Assembly (NCBI GenBank): GCA_014800815.1
Contig: JAAVFI010000006.1
Span: forward strand, 1 to 42,678
DNA length: 42,678 nt
From: Bacteroidales bacterium
GTDB lineage: Bacteria; Bacteroidota; Bacteroidia; Bacteroidales; Muribaculaceae
Direction: 5' to 3'
Shown here piece by piece: positions 417 to 37,064 of this stretch. How positions within the stretch are numbered: position 1 is the first letter of the stretch; the number at the start of each line of letters is the position of its first letter. The notes under the pieces were generated by a model. It did no database searches. It was not told the DNA's origin and was given only the letters and a program-made list of their open reading frames with translations. Both the position numbers and the translations under genes were made by a program.

Positions 417-1706
417 TCAGAGTCCGAAAGCCTTCTTGATATCTTCTACCGCATCGAGTTTCTCCCATGTGAAGAGCTCGACGGTGCGGGTGATAGGTTC
501 TTCGTAGTGCGAAGTGAAAGTCTTCGTAACAGTGCGGGGGATACGGCCCACATGACCGTACGAAGCGGTTTCGCGGTAGATAGGATTGCGGAGCTTGAGG
601 CGCTGCTCAATGGCGAACGGACGCATGTCGAAGAGCTTTGCCACGCGGTCGGCGATTTCCGCGTCAGAGAGGTCTACCTTGGCAGTGTCGTAGGTATTGA
701 TATTGATGCTTACAGGCTCTGCCACACCGATAGCGTATGCCACCTGCACAAGAGCGCGGTCGGCAACACCGGCTGCCACAAGATTCTTGGCGATATGGCG
801 AGCTGCATAGGCAGCAGAGCGGTCGACCTTGGAGGGGTCCTTACCCGAGAATGCGCCGCCGCCGTGAGCACCGTGGCCACCGTATGTGTCCACAATAATC
901 TTACGGCCCGTAAGACCCGTGTCGCCGTGAGGGCCACCGATCACGAATTTTCCCGTCGGATTTACATAGAGCTTGTAGTCGCTCTTCTTTACCATTTCGG
1001 CAATGTCGGCGGGGAGCTCTTCGAGAGTGCGCGGTATGAGGATGTTTTGTACATCGCGGTGAATAATCTCGAGCATGCGCTTGTCGGCCTCGTCCTGCGA
1101 AATGCCTTCGGCGGCAGCGTCGATAAATTCGTCGTGCTGAGTCGATACCACGATAGTGTCGATAGCCACAGGGCGGTCGTTCTCATCGTATTCCACAGTC
1201 ACCTGGCTCTTGGCGTCGGGGCGGAGATAAGTCATGTCTACGCCTTCGCGACGGATCTTGGCGAGAGTCTGCAGCAGCGCATGGCTCAGAGCAAGAGTCA
1301 GAGGGATGTAGAGGTCGGTTTCGTTTGTAGCGTAGCCGAACATCATACCCTGGTCGCCGGCGCCCTGGTTTTCGAGTGTTTCACGCTCAACGCCGCGGTT
1401 GATGTCGGCGCTCTGCTCGTGAACGGCGAGGAACACGCCGCACGAATTACCGTCGAAGCGGAGTTCCGAGCGGTCGTATCCTATTTCATTGATTACGCGG
1501 CGCGCGGTCTCCTGAACGTCGATGTAAGCCGAACTTTTGATTTCGCCGGCTACAACTACCTGTCCGGTGGTTACGAGGGTCTCGCAAGCAACTTTCGACT
1601 GAGGGTCACGGGCGAGGAATTCATCAAGTACGGCATCTGAAATCTGGTCGGCAACCTTGTCGGGATGACCTTCCGATACCGATTCTGAGGTGAAGAGATA
1701 GTGCAT
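417..1706 (-). CDS. metK: S-adenosylmethionine synthetase
   Basis: This enzyme makes S-adenosylmethionine from methionine and ATP in the cytoplasm. The 429-residue product opens with the family N-terminus [13 protein letters not shown] (residues 5-17, including the conserved His14). It carries the ATP-motif hexapeptide GAGDQG at about 115-120 and the glycine-rich loop [15 protein letters not shown] at about 276-290. It is longer than the roughly 384-residue E. coli enzyme, which fits the long Bacteroidetes form. The start at 1706 is preceded by AAAGGAAAT, a plausible ribosome site. The leader of about 370 nt carries a SAM-II-type aptamer, a terminator and an inserted inverted-repeat element, so expression is probably repressed by its own product SAM. 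Confidence 0.98.
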
Positions 1707-1943: not shown

Positions 1944-1998
1944 GCAGAACAAAAACCTAAAACCGACACAACGCAGAGGCATCGAGCCTCGACGATGA

Positions 1999-2055
1999 CG
2001 GGCGATTTTAGCATTTTTTTGGGTGGTTGCAAGCAGCCAAATCTGTCCACCGGGC
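1999..2055 (-). promoter_or_regulatory. SAM-II-type riboswitch aptamer upstream of metK
   Basis: Read on the minus strand, GGTGG and CCACC enclose a loop containing GATTTGGCTGCTTGCAA, followed by an A-rich stretch and ATGCTAAAA. This matches the SAM-II plan as I recall it: helix P1, a first loop with GAUUU...UUGCA, and a 3' AAAnnGCUAAA segment that folds back into that loop as a pseudoknot. The position, between a promoter (2080-2087) and a terminator (1909-1943) ahead of SAM synthetase, supports SAM-dependent repression. Assigned by eye, without a covariance model. Confidence 0.8.
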
Positions 2056-2079
2056 GTTTCCGACCCCTTTATTGCTCTG

Positions 2080-18609: not shown

Positions 18610-18682
18610 GCGGCAGTAGCTCAGTTGGTAGAGCATCAGCTTCCCAAGCTGAGGGTCGCGAGTTCGAGCCTCGTTTGCCGCT
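18610..18682 (+). tRNA. tRNA-Gly (anticodon CCC)
   Basis: The cloverleaf is readable: acceptor GCGGCAG/TTGCCGC with one G-U pair; D-arm GCTC...GAGC; anticodon stem TCAGC/GCTGA with loop TTCCCAA, anticodon CCC (reads GGG); T-arm with TTCGAGC. CCA is not encoded. The 73-nt span is normal. Confidence 0.95.
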
Positions 18683-18691
18683 CTATCTCAG

Positions 18692-32550: not shown

Positions 32551-34086
32551 TTACTGGATTGTGACGGTGGTCACCTTTTTTGATTTGTAGGGGCCGTCGT
32601 TCACGAATTTATAGGTAGCTTTCACAACAGCCTTACCGTCTTTGTCGTAATAAGTCACGTCGTAGGTCACATTGTCAACGCGCTCTATGACAAACACCTC
32701 ATAGTCATCAATCCTAAGTCTATCTGACCAATCTGCGAAGACCTGCTTAATCCAATTGGCACCATCCTGGTCAATGTTGCCTACACTCACCATACCTGCA
32801 AGGAAGGAGAGAGCGGCCTTGTCTTTTTGTCTTTGAGCCGCTTTGGTGTCTCTTCCATGGCGGGCATTAGCAGTCATATGGCCGATGAGACCGTTTGCCA
32901 TCATTTGCGCAGCTTGGTCGGATGCTTTTTTTTCCTGAGCAGTTTGGCCACGTAGCCCCAATTTCAAGGTGATATAGTCTTTGGTGGCGGCTTTGGCCGA
33001 CTGGATGTTATAGGCGTTCGATTTGTAGGATTGGCGCAGCAAAGCATTGTCAACCTCCTGGTTCTTATTGCGTGTAAATATGGAAGCGTCAAATTTATTG
33101 TTGTATTCGGGGTGGGAGGCGTAGCTTTTATATTCAACGTTTACGGGATACGATTCGCTCTTTTTTTTGTAGTCGCTATCCACAACCCACAGCCATTTCT
33201 TTCCTCCGCTACGCATTTTGCCAGCGTTAAATTCGTAGATATTGGTGGGATACTTGAGTAGCTGCTCCAACAGGAACGGATTTGCCACAGTGTCGGCAAA
33301 CACTTCCATGGGTTTGTCTTTCGTCTTTGCGGCTCTGTAGCGTTCCTCGTAAATCGCACGCCTAATCATCATTTTGCTCGAATCTGGATGTCTCTCTATG
33401 TCGGCTTTGGTATTCTCCGGCAGGCTGTTAAAGTCGGGGTAGGTTTTGAAAAATTCAGCAAGCTCATTCGGTATAGTCTCATCTCCGTATGGCTCATTAA
33501 GCAATTGGAGTGCGACCTGAGCAAAGCAATATTCGTTCCAAAACGGCGCATAGACCTGCTGCAGGGGCTCGGAAAGTTTTTTGCTTATTTTGTCTTTGTC
33601 AAGGTCCTTTTTGATGTTCTTCTTAAGCTTTTCGTCGGTGGTTTTCGAAAGGATGTATTCAATAGCCGTTCTCTGCTCTGGGTTGGTAATCTTTTGCCCG
33701 TAGTTTTGGGCAACGTTTTCAAGAAGGACGCAGATGTTGCCGTTGTCGGTTTCCACCTGCTTCAATCTTGCTTTATGCGCAGCTATTTGCTTTGTTACAT
33801 CCTTTCTGCCATAGAGCTTCGACCGGAGCACAAACGTTTTGGGCTGATGCTCCACCAGGCTGTCGATCATCTCCTGTGAGAGATAGATCCAGCCATTGGA
33901 CACATGATGGAAGCTTTGAAAGACTTCCATCGGCGACTTAAAATGATAGGATGGGTTGTCGGAACGAAGTTCCGTGGGGCGCTCACACTTCACCGACGAC
34001 AGGTCGATGTAGGCCCGCCCGTTCTTGGCTGCGGTTGGCAATACCGACATGATAATCCCAGCCATTAGAATCAAATATTTTTTCAT
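32551..34086 (-). CDS. Hypothetical 511-residue exported protein
   Basis: A signal peptide (MKKYLILMAGIIMSVLPTAA) leads a Lys/Asp-rich, mostly helical protein with no family I recognise. Landmarks: YIDLSSVKCERP (26-37), a Lys-rich stretch KLKKNIKKDLDKDKISKKL near 155, WNEYCFAQVALQLL near 190, LGLRGQTAQEKKASDQAAQM near 380, and a C-terminal beta segment (DDYEVFVIERVDNVTYDVTY) with a strongly basic end (YKSKKVTTVTIQ). No metal or catalytic motif stands out. It may be cotranscribed with the 75-residue gene upstream (71-base gap), since no clear promoter lies between. Composition is AT-richer than in core genes. Confidence 0.75.
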   Translation of the reverse strand: MKKYLILMAGIIMSVLPTAAKNGRAYIDLSSVKCERPTELRSDNPSYHFKSPMEVFQSFHHVSNGWIYLSQEMIDSLVEHQPKTFVLRSKLYGRKDVTKQIAAHKARLKQVETDNGNICVLLENVAQNYGQKITNPEQRTAIEYILSKTTDEKLKKNIKKDLDKDKISKKLSEPLQQVYAPFWNEYCFAQVALQLLNEPYGDETIPNELAEFFKTYPDFNSLPENTKADIERHPDSSKMMIRRAIYEERYRAAKTKDKPMEVFADTVANPFLLEQLLKYPTNIYEFNAGKMRSGGKKWLWVVDSDYKKKSESYPVNVEYKSYASHPEYNNKFDASIFTRNKNQEVDNALLRQSYKSNAYNIQSAKAATKDYITLKLGLRGQTAQEKKASDQAAQMMANGLIGHMTANARHGRDTKAAQRQKDKAALSFLAGMVSVGNIDQDGANWIKQVFADWSDRLRIDDYEVFVIERVDNVTYDVTYYDKDGKAVVKATYKFVNDGPYKSKKVTTVTIQ

Positions 34087-34157
34087 TATGTTGTTTGTGA
34101 TGATGATTTGTTATTTCTACAAATTGATAGCATGGGGGGCGATGTTTATCCACTTGT

Positions 34158-34385
34158 TTATTTAAACCAGTCTTGATTCTTTGAACGCGGATACTCCTTA
34201 AGGATAAAATCCTTCAACTTAATTAAGAAATTCTTGGCGTCAGCTTCGTTGTCAAAGAAAATTGAATTTTGCCAATTTTCTTTAAGTATCTCCAACTCCT
34301 GTTTGGATTCATCTTTAATGTGGATGGTTCTGAAATAGCCATTGCAATCCATTGCAATCCACCAATAGTGCTGCTCTTTGTGCAT
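34158..34385 (-). CDS. Hypothetical 75-residue protein
   Basis: A small charged protein (HYWWIAMDCNGYFRTIHIKDE...FFDNEADAKNFLIKLKDFILKEYP). The WWIAMDxNGYFRT start and helical end look like a compact alpha/beta domain, but I recognise no family. A near-consensus -7 box (CAACTTTG on minus, 34389-34396) lies so close that transcription would begin at about the ATG; either the mRNA is nearly leaderless, the true start is the later Met12, or expression comes by readthrough from the candidate RNA gene upstream. Confidence 0.5.
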   Translation of the reverse strand: MHKEQHYWWIAMDCNGYFRTIHIKDESKQELEILKENWQNSIFFDNEADAKNFLIKLKDFILKEYPRSKNQDWFK

Positions 34386-34434
34386 TTTGCAAAGTTGCCG
34401 CGGTCATCCTCTCGTTGGCGTTTGTTGTTGTACG

Positions 34435-34757
34435 AAAAAAGCGTAGGAATCTGTATCTGTTACCGTCCTACAAGCAGAGGCTTCTCGCATTGCCCTATTC
34501 ATGTCGGACGGCAACGCAGAAGCCCACGCTTGTATATGCAATCATTACGTCCGGCTATATTTCTCCCGAAATATTGTGCCGAAAGTATGATAATTACATA
34601 TCCACGGGCATCTACCGTTGCTCAATCCTTGACATGAATATGAAATTTTGCGAGAATTTCTGCTTGTCAAGAATCAGCGCGGATAAACGCTTTCTTATGT
34701 ATTTAACTACATCCCGCTCCGCTTAACCCCAGACCGGGGCTTCTGCGAATCGGTCTG
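34435..34757 (-). ncRNA. Candidate structured noncoding RNA, about 320 nt
   Basis: The 495-base gap between dnaG and the 75-residue gene holds a complete minus-strand RNA unit. A -7 box (34764-34771) is followed seven bases later by a hairpin AGACCG/CGGTCT (34731-34736 with 34751-34756) at the predicted 5' end. Then come a stem CTTGACA/TGTCAAG (34628-34634, 34665-34671) enclosing GAAATT/AATTTC, and a bulged hairpin CGGC...GCCG with ATATTTC/GAAATAT inside (34552-34581). The 3' domain has outer helix AAGCGTAGG/CCCACGCTT (34439-34447, 34523-34531), inner GGCTTCT/AGAAGCC and TTGCC/GGCAA, and a possible pseudoknot GTCC/GGAC (34465-34468, 34506-34509). U6 follows (plus A-run 34435-34440). It does not match my memory of tmRNA, RNase P RNA or SRP RNA. 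It could belong to an existing Rfam family I do not recall. Confidence 0.6.
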
Positions 34758-34763
34758 CGACTG

Positions 34764-34771
34764 CAAAGTTA
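34764..34771 (-). promoter_or_regulatory. Promoter of the structured RNA
   Basis: TAACTTTG on the minus strand, an exact TAnnTTTG match, followed seven bases later by the 5' hairpin of the RNA. Confidence 0.65.
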
Positions 34772-34880
34772 TAAAAAAATTCTAATATTTGCCAATAGAT
34801 TATTTATTAAGAGGATATTAATTCACACTATTATCCTCTGCCGCCCTTTCTCCAGGGCATCTATCCCCAACGAAAAGGAG

Positions 34881-37064
34881 CTATTTCTGCCTCGGCAGAA
34901 TGATTCGGTCGCCGAGAATTTCGGCGAGACGGCGCTGGAATTCCTTGTACTCGCCTATCTGAGTGATGATTTCCATGGCCTTTTCAGGGTCGGAAGCACC
35001 CTCGGTGGCGAGGCGGCGCGTAAGGTCGGTGATGATGTCGGCGACTATCGCATTGCGAAGTTCGATAATTGCTCTGGGCACGAGAGTAGGCAATTGGTCC
35101 TGCTCTGTGCTCACGCCTTGTTTGGTGTAGATTTTCGACAGAGTATATCTGTCGACCATAAGCTCTACGGCCGTGGTACGTACGGCGTCGTCGGGGCTGT
35201 TTACAAGGCGTGTCTGCACCCATTTCATATCGAATTCATCGATAGAGGCGCGTATATATACTTCGCGGCGCTGCTGTGCTTCCGATTCAAGTCGGGCGAG
35301 TTGCTCCATGCTGCCGCCTTTTTGGCGTATTTCCTCGCGGGCTTGCTCGAGCAGAGCTTCCGCTTCGCCTTCGATTTCGGCCATGCGGCGGGCATGTTCT
35401 GCCGGCCATTCGTTGTTGCGCATCTCCTTCACGGCGGCATATACAGCCGCGTAGGGTGCGTAGGTAAATCCGATATTGTCGATGTCGAGCTGCGACGATA
35501 TCACATCGAAGACGGGCACGAGCGCGCACTTGTCGTCGTCGCCCTTCATGGGTATCGACAGCAGGCCGTAGCGCACAAGGTAGCGTGCGAGCATCTCCTC
35601 GAAAGGCTTCAGCTTGTTGGCGTCAAGGTTGAGCAGCGGAGCCTCGGCAGCAGGAGCAGTGCGGGCGCTCTCTTCTTTTTCGATACCTTCTATGCTTTTA
35701 CGAGCTTCTTCGCGGCGCTGATTCTTCTCGTCTTCTACGTATCGGCCCGTGATGAGTACGTTCAGCTGGTTTACGAGCACCTCCTCTGCAATACCGAGCA
35801 TGCGCGAGCATTGCGAGATATATTCCTGGCGCTTCACTGCCTCGTCGACATGAGCTACCGACTGCAGAATCACATTCACAACCTTGGCGCGTGCCGTGGG
35901 GTCGTTTGCCGGGATGTCCTTCATCAGAACCTCGGTCATAAATGCGATAATATCACGCTCATTTTCCGCGAGATACTGCTCGACTTCCGACGACGAATGG
36001 CTCTGTGCGAAGCTGTCGGGGTCGTCGCCCGGAGGCAGCAGTAGCACCTTCACATTCAGCTTCTCGGCAAGCAGCATATTGATACCTCGCAGCGAAGCCT
36101 TGATACCCGCAGCGTCGGCATCATAGATCAGAGTCACATTCTCGGTAAAGCGGCGCAGGGCTCGTATCTGGCCTTCTGTGAGCGAAGTACCCGACGAAGC
36201 CACAACATTCTCCACTCCAGCCTGGTGCATCGAAATCACGTCGAGATAGCCCTCGACGAGTATCACCTTGTCGCGTTTGGCAATGGCGCTCTTGGCCTGG
36301 AAGAGGCCGTATAGCTCAAGATTTTTCTTATATATGAGCGACTCGGGCGAGTTGACGTACTTCGCTATTGTCTTGTCGGAGCGCATCGTACGGCCACCGA
36401 AGCCCACCACGCGTCCCGAGATACTGAGGATAGGGAACATCACGCGTCCGCGGAAGCGGTCGTAGAGGCTCGTCCGCCCCTCGCGCTCGCTCTTGCCCGC
36501 GAGGCCGGTCTCTAAGAGGTACTTCTCGTTATATCCGCCATCGCGGGCGGCGTCGAGCAGGGCAGTGCTGCGGTCGAGCGAATAGCCGAGACGGAACCGC
36601 TCTATCATGGCGTCGTTGAGGCCGCGGTGACGGAAATATGCCAGCGCAATATCGCGTCCGTCCGGTGTCTCGAGCAGATTGTGGCGGAAGTGATTGAGCG
36701 CAAACTCATTCACCGCAAGCATAGCCTCACGGTCGTTCTGTTGCTGTCGCTCCTCGTCGGTCTGCTCCTTCTCGACTACCTCGATGTTGTACTTCCGAGC
36801 GAGATAGCGCAGAGCTTCCTGGTACGACATCTGCTCGTGCTCCATAATGAAGTTGACGGGCGAACCACCCTTGCCGCAACTGAAACACTTGCAGATATTC
36901 CTCGACTTGTTTACCGAAAACGACGGCGTGCGCTCGTTGTGAAACGGGCACAGACCCTTGTAGTTGGCACCCGAACGGCGCAACTTCACAAAGTCGCTCA
37001 CCACCTCTACGATATCGGCGGCGTCGAGAATACGGTTGACCGTTTCCTGATCAATACGTCCCAC
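34881..37064 (-). CDS. dnaG: DNA primase
   Basis: Makes RNA primers for replication, working with DnaB. The 727-residue protein has the CHC2 zinc finger (Cys39, His42, Cys60, Cys63 in CPFHNERTPSFSV...ICKCFSCGKGG), the RNA-polymerase core (FRGRVMFPILSISGRVVGFGG, about 204-224), and the TOPRIM domain with VILVEGYLDVISMHQAG (267-283, Glu271) and IYDADAAGIKA. The C-terminal part, longer than in E. coli (581), is helical and would bind helicase. The 203-bp inverted-repeat element lies just upstream of the start (from 37084), so the dnaG promoter must lie inside or beyond it. Confidence 0.97.
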   Translation of the reverse strand: MGRIDQETVNRILDAADIVEVVSDFVKLRRSGANYKGLCPFHNERTPSFSVNKSRNICKCFSCGKGGSPVNFIMEHEQMSYQEALRYLARKYNIEVVEKEQTDEERQQQNDREAMLAVNEFALNHFRHNLLETPDGRDIALAYFRHRGLNDAMIERFRLGYSLDRSTALLDAARDGGYNEKYLLETGLAGKSEREGRTSLYDRFRGRVMFPILSISGRVVGFGGRTMRSDKTIAKYVNSPESLIYKKNLELYGLFQAKSAIAKRDKVILVEGYLDVISMHQAGVENVVASSGTSLTEGQIRALRRFTENVTLIYDADAAGIKASLRGINMLLAEKLNVKVLLLPPGDDPDSFAQSHSSSEVEQYLAENERDIIAFMTEVLMKDIPANDPTARAKVVNVILQSVAHVDEAVKRQEYISQCSRMLGIAEEVLVNQLNVLITGRYVEDEKNQRREEARKSIEGIEKEESARTAPAAEAPLLNLDANKLKPFEEMLARYLVRYGLLSIPMKGDDDKCALVPVFDVISSQLDIDNIGFTYAPYAAVYAAVKEMRNNEWPAEHARRMAEIEGEAEALLEQAREEIRQKGGSMEQLARLESEAQQRREVYIRASIDEFDMKWVQTRLVNSPDDAVRTTAVELMVDRYTLSKIYTKQGVSTEQDQLPTLVPRAIIELRNAIVADIITDLTRRLATEGASDPEKAMEIITQIGEYKEFQRRLAEILGDRIILPRQK

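Follow-up and report, generated by a model that had tools for sequence, protein, structure and literature searches.

We found that a promoter, a leader RNA of about 370 nt and the gene behind it form one unit that recurs in many Bacteroidales. The leader, present in 12 copies in the Muribaculaceae genome studied here, folds into a large conserved structure with long-range helices, two of which carry short paired codes that differ from copy to copy. Mutually exclusive folds towards its 3' end suggest that it controls the downstream gene by transcription attenuation. The initial annotation, an earlier reading of the same DNA, mentioned neither the gene behind the leader nor its paralogues, nor the hypervariable codes and their pairing.

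Extent, promoter and strand of the leader

The element, promoter included, spans about 385 nt (34386-34771, minus strand) of the window, the whole stretch of 42,678 nt that was analysed, and stops just ahead of the start codon of the next gene; dnaG (34881-37064) lies upstream. The leader RNA itself (34386..34757) was delimited using alignment A1 and a profile alignment of 230 near-full copies, with a 5' end (about 34757) inferred from the -7 box and a 3' limit set at the last base before the downstream start codon. All leader features given below are on the minus strand, and positions in the RNA (ref) are numbered such that the window coordinate equals 34772 - ref.

The promoter contains TAACTTTG (34764..34771), an exact match to TAnnTTTG, the Bacteroidales -7 promoter consensus, as the initial annotation had stated. 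Of the 225 copies whose upstream sequence is long enough, 199 have the exact motif, where mononucleotide shuffles predict 16.9. The run of six U residues noted there is likewise present (34435..34440); it follows a hairpin that we call Pt, and TTTT is found at the same place in 197 of 225 copies. Past this run, a tail of about 45 nt (...CGCCAACGAGAGGAUGACCGCGGCA) is conserved in the alignment up to just before the start codon. Its segment ACGCCAACGAGAGGAUGACCGCGGCA (34396..34421) ends 10 nt before the start codon and diverges more in other families.

The description of a highly structured RNA was borne out by folding of the minus strand (34771-34428), which gave a z-score of -8.0, with none of 100 shuffles equally stable. 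Owing to the near-palindromic sequence of the element, a stable fold is obtained for the plus strand too (z = -6.0). Numerous G-U pairs in the helices that covary point to the minus strand as the one that corresponds to the RNA: the pair ref 260-310 is GT in 113 cases and GC in 111, and the pair ref 265-305 is TG in 66. An antisense frame of 124 codons with a TTG start, pointed out previously, does exist (34352-34726). A short upstream ORF was considered and rejected, as the frame ATGCCCGTGGATATGTAA of the window copy is broken by indels elsewhere (two alignments, by eye).

Using the covariance models of Rfam release 15 on positions 34100-34890, we detected nothing at gathering score; the three matches returned (E 4.6-7) are far below the cut-off and at chance level, in agreement with the proposal of an RNA outside known families. 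The housekeeping RNAs tmRNA, RNase P, SRP and 6S were rejected on the basis that the region has no ARAGORN or Rfam match. No terminator was reported at the leader by a simple terminator scan, whose limit is exceeded by the 17-nt loop of the hairpin before the U-run. Elsewhere in the window, we identified a SAM-II riboswitch (1998-2056, minus strand; 57 bits against a gathering score of 44) about 290 nt upstream of an S-adenosylmethionine synthetase gene (420-1706, minus strand), and a tRNA-Gly with anticodon CCC (18610-18683, plus strand).

A large conserved fold with long-range helices

The large fold comprises helices P1, P2, P2b, P3, P4, P5, a, c and b, with 85 pairs in all. In A1, 94.4% of its cells are paired. 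Shuffled alignments give 86.1%, with none of 500 reaching the observed value, and slid ones no more than 45.4%; the covariation score of the fold is 0.288, against 0.139. A search of all column pairs in 58 copies, with no assumed structure, placed two nested helices, a (ref 107-111:296-300) and b (ref 133-138:270-275), in the top 11 places, although their partners lie about 130 to 190 nt apart. When 230 near-full copies were used, equivalent to 140 effective sequences at 80% identity, the pairs of a were strongest and those of c, b, P3, P5 and Pt were among the top. When helices were controlled one by one in these 230 copies, 11 of 12 beat all 100 shuffles; the exception, alt247 (ref 247-254:287-294), is neither supported nor refuted because it barely varies.

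Covariation counts in the 230 copies differ between the helices. P2b (34682..34685 with 34454..34457) is paired in 92.3% of cells and shows 102 cells changed on both sides, against at most 17 in slides. P3 (34666..34675 with 34624..34633) is paired in 90.5%, with 210 such cells against at most 100. P5 (GUUGCCGUCC, 34506..34515, with GGACGGUAAC, 34459..34468) is paired in 98.8%, with 72 against at most 19, and includes the stem 34465-34468/34506-34509 of the initial annotation, which therefore lies in a helix that covaries. P4 (34595..34615 with 34516..34540) has a variable tip hairpin (34557-34574). P2 (34687..34694 with 34437..34444) takes in part of the U-run; it is paired in 95.6% of cells with 26 changed on both sides, and none of 100 shuffles was as high, but slides reach 37.

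The long-range helix c (UUCUCGCA, 34649..34656, with UGCGAGAA, 34482..34489) is paired in 96.0% of cells and varies little, with about 12 double changes on the tree at ref 120-286 and 34 cells changed on both sides, while slides reach 96. This core (UUCUCGCA:UGCGAGAA) is common to most aligned Muribaculaceae copies and changes little while a and b vary. P1, P2, c, alt151 and ref 241-249:325-333 are more weakly supported, because their cells changed on both sides do not exceed all slide controls. The last of these is another stem proposed earlier (34439-34447/34523-34531): its pairing holds in 90% of cells, but it shows little covariation.

The hairpin loop of P3 holds a-c-b and that of P5 holds b'-c'-a'. 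P3 and P5 are pseudoknotted with the long-range helices, and both are missing from the plain energy fold, which is a single long nested rod. The two loops may kiss; alternatively, the local hairpins may be made early and later be replaced by the rod. Energies were computed for the nested portion of the large fold (-51 kcal/mol) and for a partial terminator fold (-33), but both structures are incomplete and the values were left unused for this reason.

A competing hairpin before the U-run

Hairpin Pt (ref 301-306:324-329) is formed by GUAGGA (34466..34471) and UCCUAC (34443..34448), lies directly before GC-U6 and resembles a terminator. Its cells are paired in 91.8% of cases in the 230 copies, and 149 of them are changed on both sides, against at most 17 in slides. 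The pair ref 303-327 occurs as GC in 101 copies and as AU in 99; on the tree we counted some 12 double changes for it, but also some 15 changes that disrupt the pairing. Because they have bases in common, Pt excludes P5, a and P2. On each side of the alternative, that is in P5, P2b and a and in Pt, there are pairs with about a dozen or more double changes on the tree. Two conserved and mutually exclusive folds, one of them ending in a hairpin and U-run, make up the anatomy of an attenuator. The position of Pt right before the U-run accordingly suggests a transcription attenuator, with Pt as the putative terminator.

Hypervariable pairing codes

Helix a is formed by 34659..34667 and 34470..34478, with the codes at 34661-34665 and 34472-34476, and contains the top covarying pairs. 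Helix b is formed by 34632..34639 and 34497..34504, with the codes at 34634-34639 and 34497-34502; it is paired in 90.7% of cells in A1 and in 73% in the broad profile alignment, where the length of the segment varies. We counted 115 distinct a codes among 230 copies. All five central pairs of a are kept in 200 of the 215 copies with all letters, and only 28 of these 1075 pairs are G-U. The a code is incompletely paired in the other 15 copies (L024, L044 and L019 by inspection), which are perhaps chimeras.

Between copies 95-98% identical elsewhere (42 pairs), the codes differ at 0.657 per site compared with 0.0365 in the background, a ratio of 18, while the tip of P4, the other variable part, differs at 0.122 per site. 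The ratio is 7.5 at 90-95% identity (356 pairs), 4.9 at 85-90% (1378 pairs) and 32 at 98% or more, where there are four pairs, two of which have both codes equal. These copy pairs are not independent, and many of the closest involve the single copy L277. Codes are thus close to random in sequence between copies nearly identical elsewhere, yet their pairing is mostly kept.

A tree built from columns outside these helices gave about 106 double and 3 one-sided changes for the pair ref 107-300 and 99 double and no one-sided changes for ref 111-296, compared with 13 double and 36 one-sided changes for the P5 pair ref 265-305. Code replacement therefore mostly affects both partners of a pair together, in contrast to P5, which drifts through G-U. 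The b pair ref 138-270 (52 double, 4 one-sided and 24 breaking changes) is less clean, in part because of the variable length of b.

No two of the 12 copies in this genome have the same a code or the same b code; in L103 and L105 the b codes are one base apart and b' is equal. Two other copies of this genome, L003 and L004, differ in 15 profile columns of ref 67-340, of which 14 lie in or beside the codes: six in a/a', six in b/b' and two beside b (ref 130-131), with one elsewhere (ref 193). Six pairs are changed on both sides. A MAFFT alignment of the same two copies has 14 differing columns and reveals an indel of 3 nt in the linker that follows the U-run. Exchange of a whole tract from an unrelated donor fits these copies poorly, because their peripheral hairpin is unchanged except at ref 193.

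Within genomes, 2 of 147 pairs of copies have an equal a code and 2 an equal b code; between genomes (7854 pairs, from 127 copies of known genome) the values are 1.0% and 1.6%. With 2 of 147 set against 1.0% for a, avoidance within genomes beyond the general diversity is not significant. When the downstream proteins are at least 80% identical, 4 of 8 pairs of copies have equal a codes, compared with none of 19 at 60-80%; the codes turn over between probable orthologues too. Codes also recur in new combinations among copies. They diversify with complementarity kept, as in kissing-loop self-recognition.

Copies in the genome and distribution in Bacteroidales

BLAST with the RNA as query returned six copies from the genome studied here. 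In the family Muribaculaceae, 138 of 198 genomes had matches, this genome included, and often several each. A covariance model of the 3' domain (R1) detected 12 loci in this genome, with five weaker echoes on the opposite strand set aside. A model of the 5' domain built from other bases (R2) detected the identical 12 loci and two echoes, which shows that both halves always occur together here; the R2 search of this genome gave no 5' domain without a 3' domain, and trans-acting orphan halves were rejected for this genome. The exact -7 box is present at 11 of the 12 (missing at L104) and a downstream ORF also at 11, the remaining copy (L105) being cut by the contig end.

In an even sample of the order, R1 matched 18 of 198 genomes and R2 also 18, with 17 common to both. 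The R1-positive genomes span 12 families and have, this genome aside, at most nine matches each; the count for the order is probably too low, because R1 was trained on one family. We compared 34 loci, including 26 from the order sample, with the element profile; all match with E values of 1.4e-11 or lower, covering at least positions 119-340. This profile also matched 288 of 288 loci collected, some of which had been used in building it. In samples of the phylum, which include a few genomes of the order, this genome was the only match (1 of 296 with R1 and 1 of 198 with R2), under strict filters that may miss weak relatives. Judged by sequence models in these samples, leader homologues are found in at least 12 Bacteroidales families and not elsewhere in the phylum.

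The named carriers among the matches listed, on at least 118 stretches, include Duncaniella muris, Heminiphilus faecis, Paraprevotella clara, P. xylaniphila, Phocaeicola oris and Xylanibacter rodentium, and the labels Bacteroides, Prevotella, Parabacteroides and Barnesiella also occur there. Three labels of the Clostridia type among the same matches may be mis-binned contigs. Homologues in many genomes and strong covariation fit the initial proposal of a conserved Bacteroidales RNA. Lack of homologues, lack of covariation and membership of a known family, which that annotation had named as computational grounds for giving it up, were each looked for and none was found.

The window copy has no match among plasmid and phage records. 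One uncultivated viral contig (L288, 540-2655) matches the pattern, with a leader copy before a 551-aa protein that has all three EF-Tu domains. In L075 (G061:C3:1-8000) the peripheral hairpin is interrupted by an insertion of about 5.3 kb, while the halves keep matching codes (by eye). Its genes, a tyrosine-recombinase-like gene and others, are in the opposite orientation (by eye); the insert was therefore taken for an unrelated visitor, and an autonomous element with a protein inside the leader was rejected.

Other genomes contain several incomplete copies. In two of these, L079 and L078, the 3' domain has been lost together with the U-run, and the 5' domain is followed by an ORF (lipoprotein-like; lipocalin-like by eye) after a few bases in L079 and roughly 115 nt in L078. 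These natural deletion forms may be constitutive. L081 runs into other sequence, L083 has the 3' half only, and L080 is cut by a contig end. Three copies from three genera (L007, L012 and L015) have about 100 nt of upstream sequence in common, including a terminator-like hairpin (by eye), and differ in their codes and first downstream ORFs.

Genes downstream of the leader

In the window, the leader is followed by an ORF of 75 aa (34158..34385, minus strand) without a signal peptide and one of 511 aa (32551..34086, minus strand) with a signal peptide, as judged by a home-made rule; neither has a Pfam family above cut-off. Downstream sequence of at least 600 nt was available for 217 unique copies, of which 209 have a co-oriented ATG ORF of at least 60 aa that starts within 400 nt. 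The distance, counted from about the end of the U-run, has a median of about 55 nt and an interquartile range of 51-78. Under a slightly simpler rule, such an ORF followed 210 of 217 leaders; the count was 394 of 651 for random positions and 112 of 194 for divergent upstream ones. When at least 150 aa were required, the corresponding values were 171 of 217, 231 of 651 and 54 of 194, and distances of 40-80 nt were found for 136 of 210 leaders and 75 of 394 random positions. The leader's fixed position and orientation before a coding sequence are those of a cis-regulatory 5' leader.

These ORFs, together with conservation that runs about 45 nt past the U-run to the next start codon, do not agree with the complete transcription unit of about 320 nt described in the initial annotation. 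A structured RNA does exist here, but not as an independent transcript of that length: what had been proposed as one regulatory or housekeeping RNA with a transcription unit to itself is the 5' leader of accessory genes, in 12 copies.

By the home-made signal-peptide rule, 109 of 209 first ORFs look secreted, compared with 68 of 399 upstream control ORFs of at least 200 aa; for first or second ORFs the figure is 156 of 209, without a matched control. Pfam annotations were obtained for 148 downstream proteins drawn at random from 346. The commonest family is the BspA-type repeat LRR_5 (17 of 148), and the others are very mixed, with PEGA, Big_2, sulfatase-modifying, radical SAM, kinase, peptidase and methylase families among the first 25. 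Many operons behind the leader (e.g. L001, L014, L015, L023, L034 and L144) encode first a small protein (about 75-150 aa) that lacks a signal peptide and then a secreted protein, which is often BspA-like. This pairing might reflect an immunity or chaperone role.

Matching of codes to the downstream gene was considered and rejected. Downstream, though not upstream, there is a slight excess of 6-mers of a and of b (for each, 7 of 200 permutations gave an equal or higher count), and position-resolved tests were inconsistent across 40 tests. In the largest effect, the 7-mers of b' occur 18 times at 60-200 nt after the aligned leader against 7.3 expected (pooled copies), a lead that is weak after 40 tests. 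A tie between codes and gene identity was also rejected, there being none below about 80% protein identity.

Proposed mechanism and alternative explanations

On balance, we lean towards a cis-acting leader with two states, most likely an attenuator, in which codes a and b would clamp a long-range fold initiated by c to its own transcript. The near-constant core c would start the contact between the two halves, and the clamps a and b would restrict the 5' half to the 3' half of its own transcript, as opposed to those of paralogous leaders in the cell. If the large fold is assembled during transcription, P2 would hold the U-run, Pt could not form and RNA polymerase would enter the gene. If it fails, or is blocked by some signal, Pt and the U-run would end transcription. 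As to the purpose of the codes, we offer a tentative reading: a and b around the common core c may give each leader a private address, kept by diversifying selection, with co-expressed leaders that fold and act only in cis, or with a terminated leader that acts back solely on its own locus.

Two alternatives also treat the element as an RNA. In the first, the leader is a ligand riboswitch or binds a protein and thereby affects translation or stability, Pt is no terminator and the codes are a free-drifting variable helix. This would agree with the leader position and with the long stretches conserved across families; hypervariable peripheral stems exist in other RNAs. We consider it unlikely, as the downstream genes are very mixed (LRR_5, then a long tail), unlike a metabolite regulon, and the codes change at 5 to 32 times the background depending on identity band, mostly by double changes with few one-sided ones, unlike P5, and far more than the variable hairpin at the P4 tip (0.657 against 0.122 per site). 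The kept U-run (197 of 225) and the compact, highly conserved RNA with its own promoter could also point to a terminated RNA of about 320 nt that acts in trans, the gene only using the same promoter by read-through. This seems quite improbable in view of the conserved tail beyond the U-run, the tight spacing to the start codon, the absence of a matching partner half elsewhere in this genome and code words without clear enrichment in the region after the leader.

Selection could also act on the DNA, with the inverted repeats as sites of recombination or mobility and the leader as a mobile cassette. Such an element would be multicopy and dispersed, with high identity between genera, codes in new combinations and a near-palindromic sequence, all of which is seen here. 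The covarying helices are instead rich in G-U pairs, a sign that selection acts at the RNA level, and the -7 box and the spacing to the gene are kept. Plasmid and phage records lack a match to the window copy, one viral contig matching the pattern, and no recombinase gene belonging to the element was noticed in an unsystematic look. A DNA-level element is thus very improbable.

The leader would represent a large RNA class that is absent from Rfam 15 and precedes accessory genes, often of secreted or surface type, in gut Bacteroidales. These genes include BspA-type repeats, PEGA and lipoproteins, and the leader could be a common control of the bacterial surface. The hypervariable complementary codes would amount to a natural experiment in RNA self-recognition that may reveal which long-range pairs matter, and they make it testable how near-identical structured RNAs in one cell avoid pairing with each other. 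The family also offers ready sets of related RNA switches with different codes.

Comparison with known systems

The FopS paralogous sRNAs of Bacteroides are, in the accessible part of their description, trans-acting RNAs of about 65-70 nt with a conserved seed, present in 12 to 15 copies per genome with sigma-ABfr promoters (PMC11697453). Like the leader, they are multicopy RNAs of this group of bacteria; by that partial description, a single-stranded 5' seed and terminator hairpin in 65-70 nt, compared with a leader of about 370 nt, set them apart, and membership of the FopS family was rejected. Bacteroidales-1 (RF01693) and other motifs have been reported as candidate structured RNAs of Bacteroidales or Bacteroidetes (PMC2864571, accessible part), and no Rfam model matches here; Bacteroides-2 and GUCCY-hairpin have no Rfam number in the table of that source and lie outside the Rfam comparison. 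A fragment of the leader may be among the 3161 candidates reported in the accessible part of PMC8040213. We found no description of this leader RNA in open PMC text.

By analogy, attenuators and plasmid kissing-loop control appear to be the closest working parallels. Attenuators and antitermination leaders include Bacteroid-trp (RF01692) and the EAR/put elements. Like the leader described here, attenuators have mutually exclusive hairpins in a 5' leader, one of which is followed by a U-run. Unlike them, this leader has a conserved core of about 260 nt, pseudoknotted or long-range helices, hypervariable paired codes, 12 paralogues in one genome before unrelated genes and no Rfam match. The antisense RNAs that control plasmid copy number (RNAI/RNAII, CopA/CopT) act through kissing loops and define incompatibility groups. 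As in the leader, their loops diversify on a constant scaffold, so that relatives do not cross-react; unlike in the plasmid systems, both halves are carried by one chromosomal leader with no antisense RNA evident, and the function is probably in cis.
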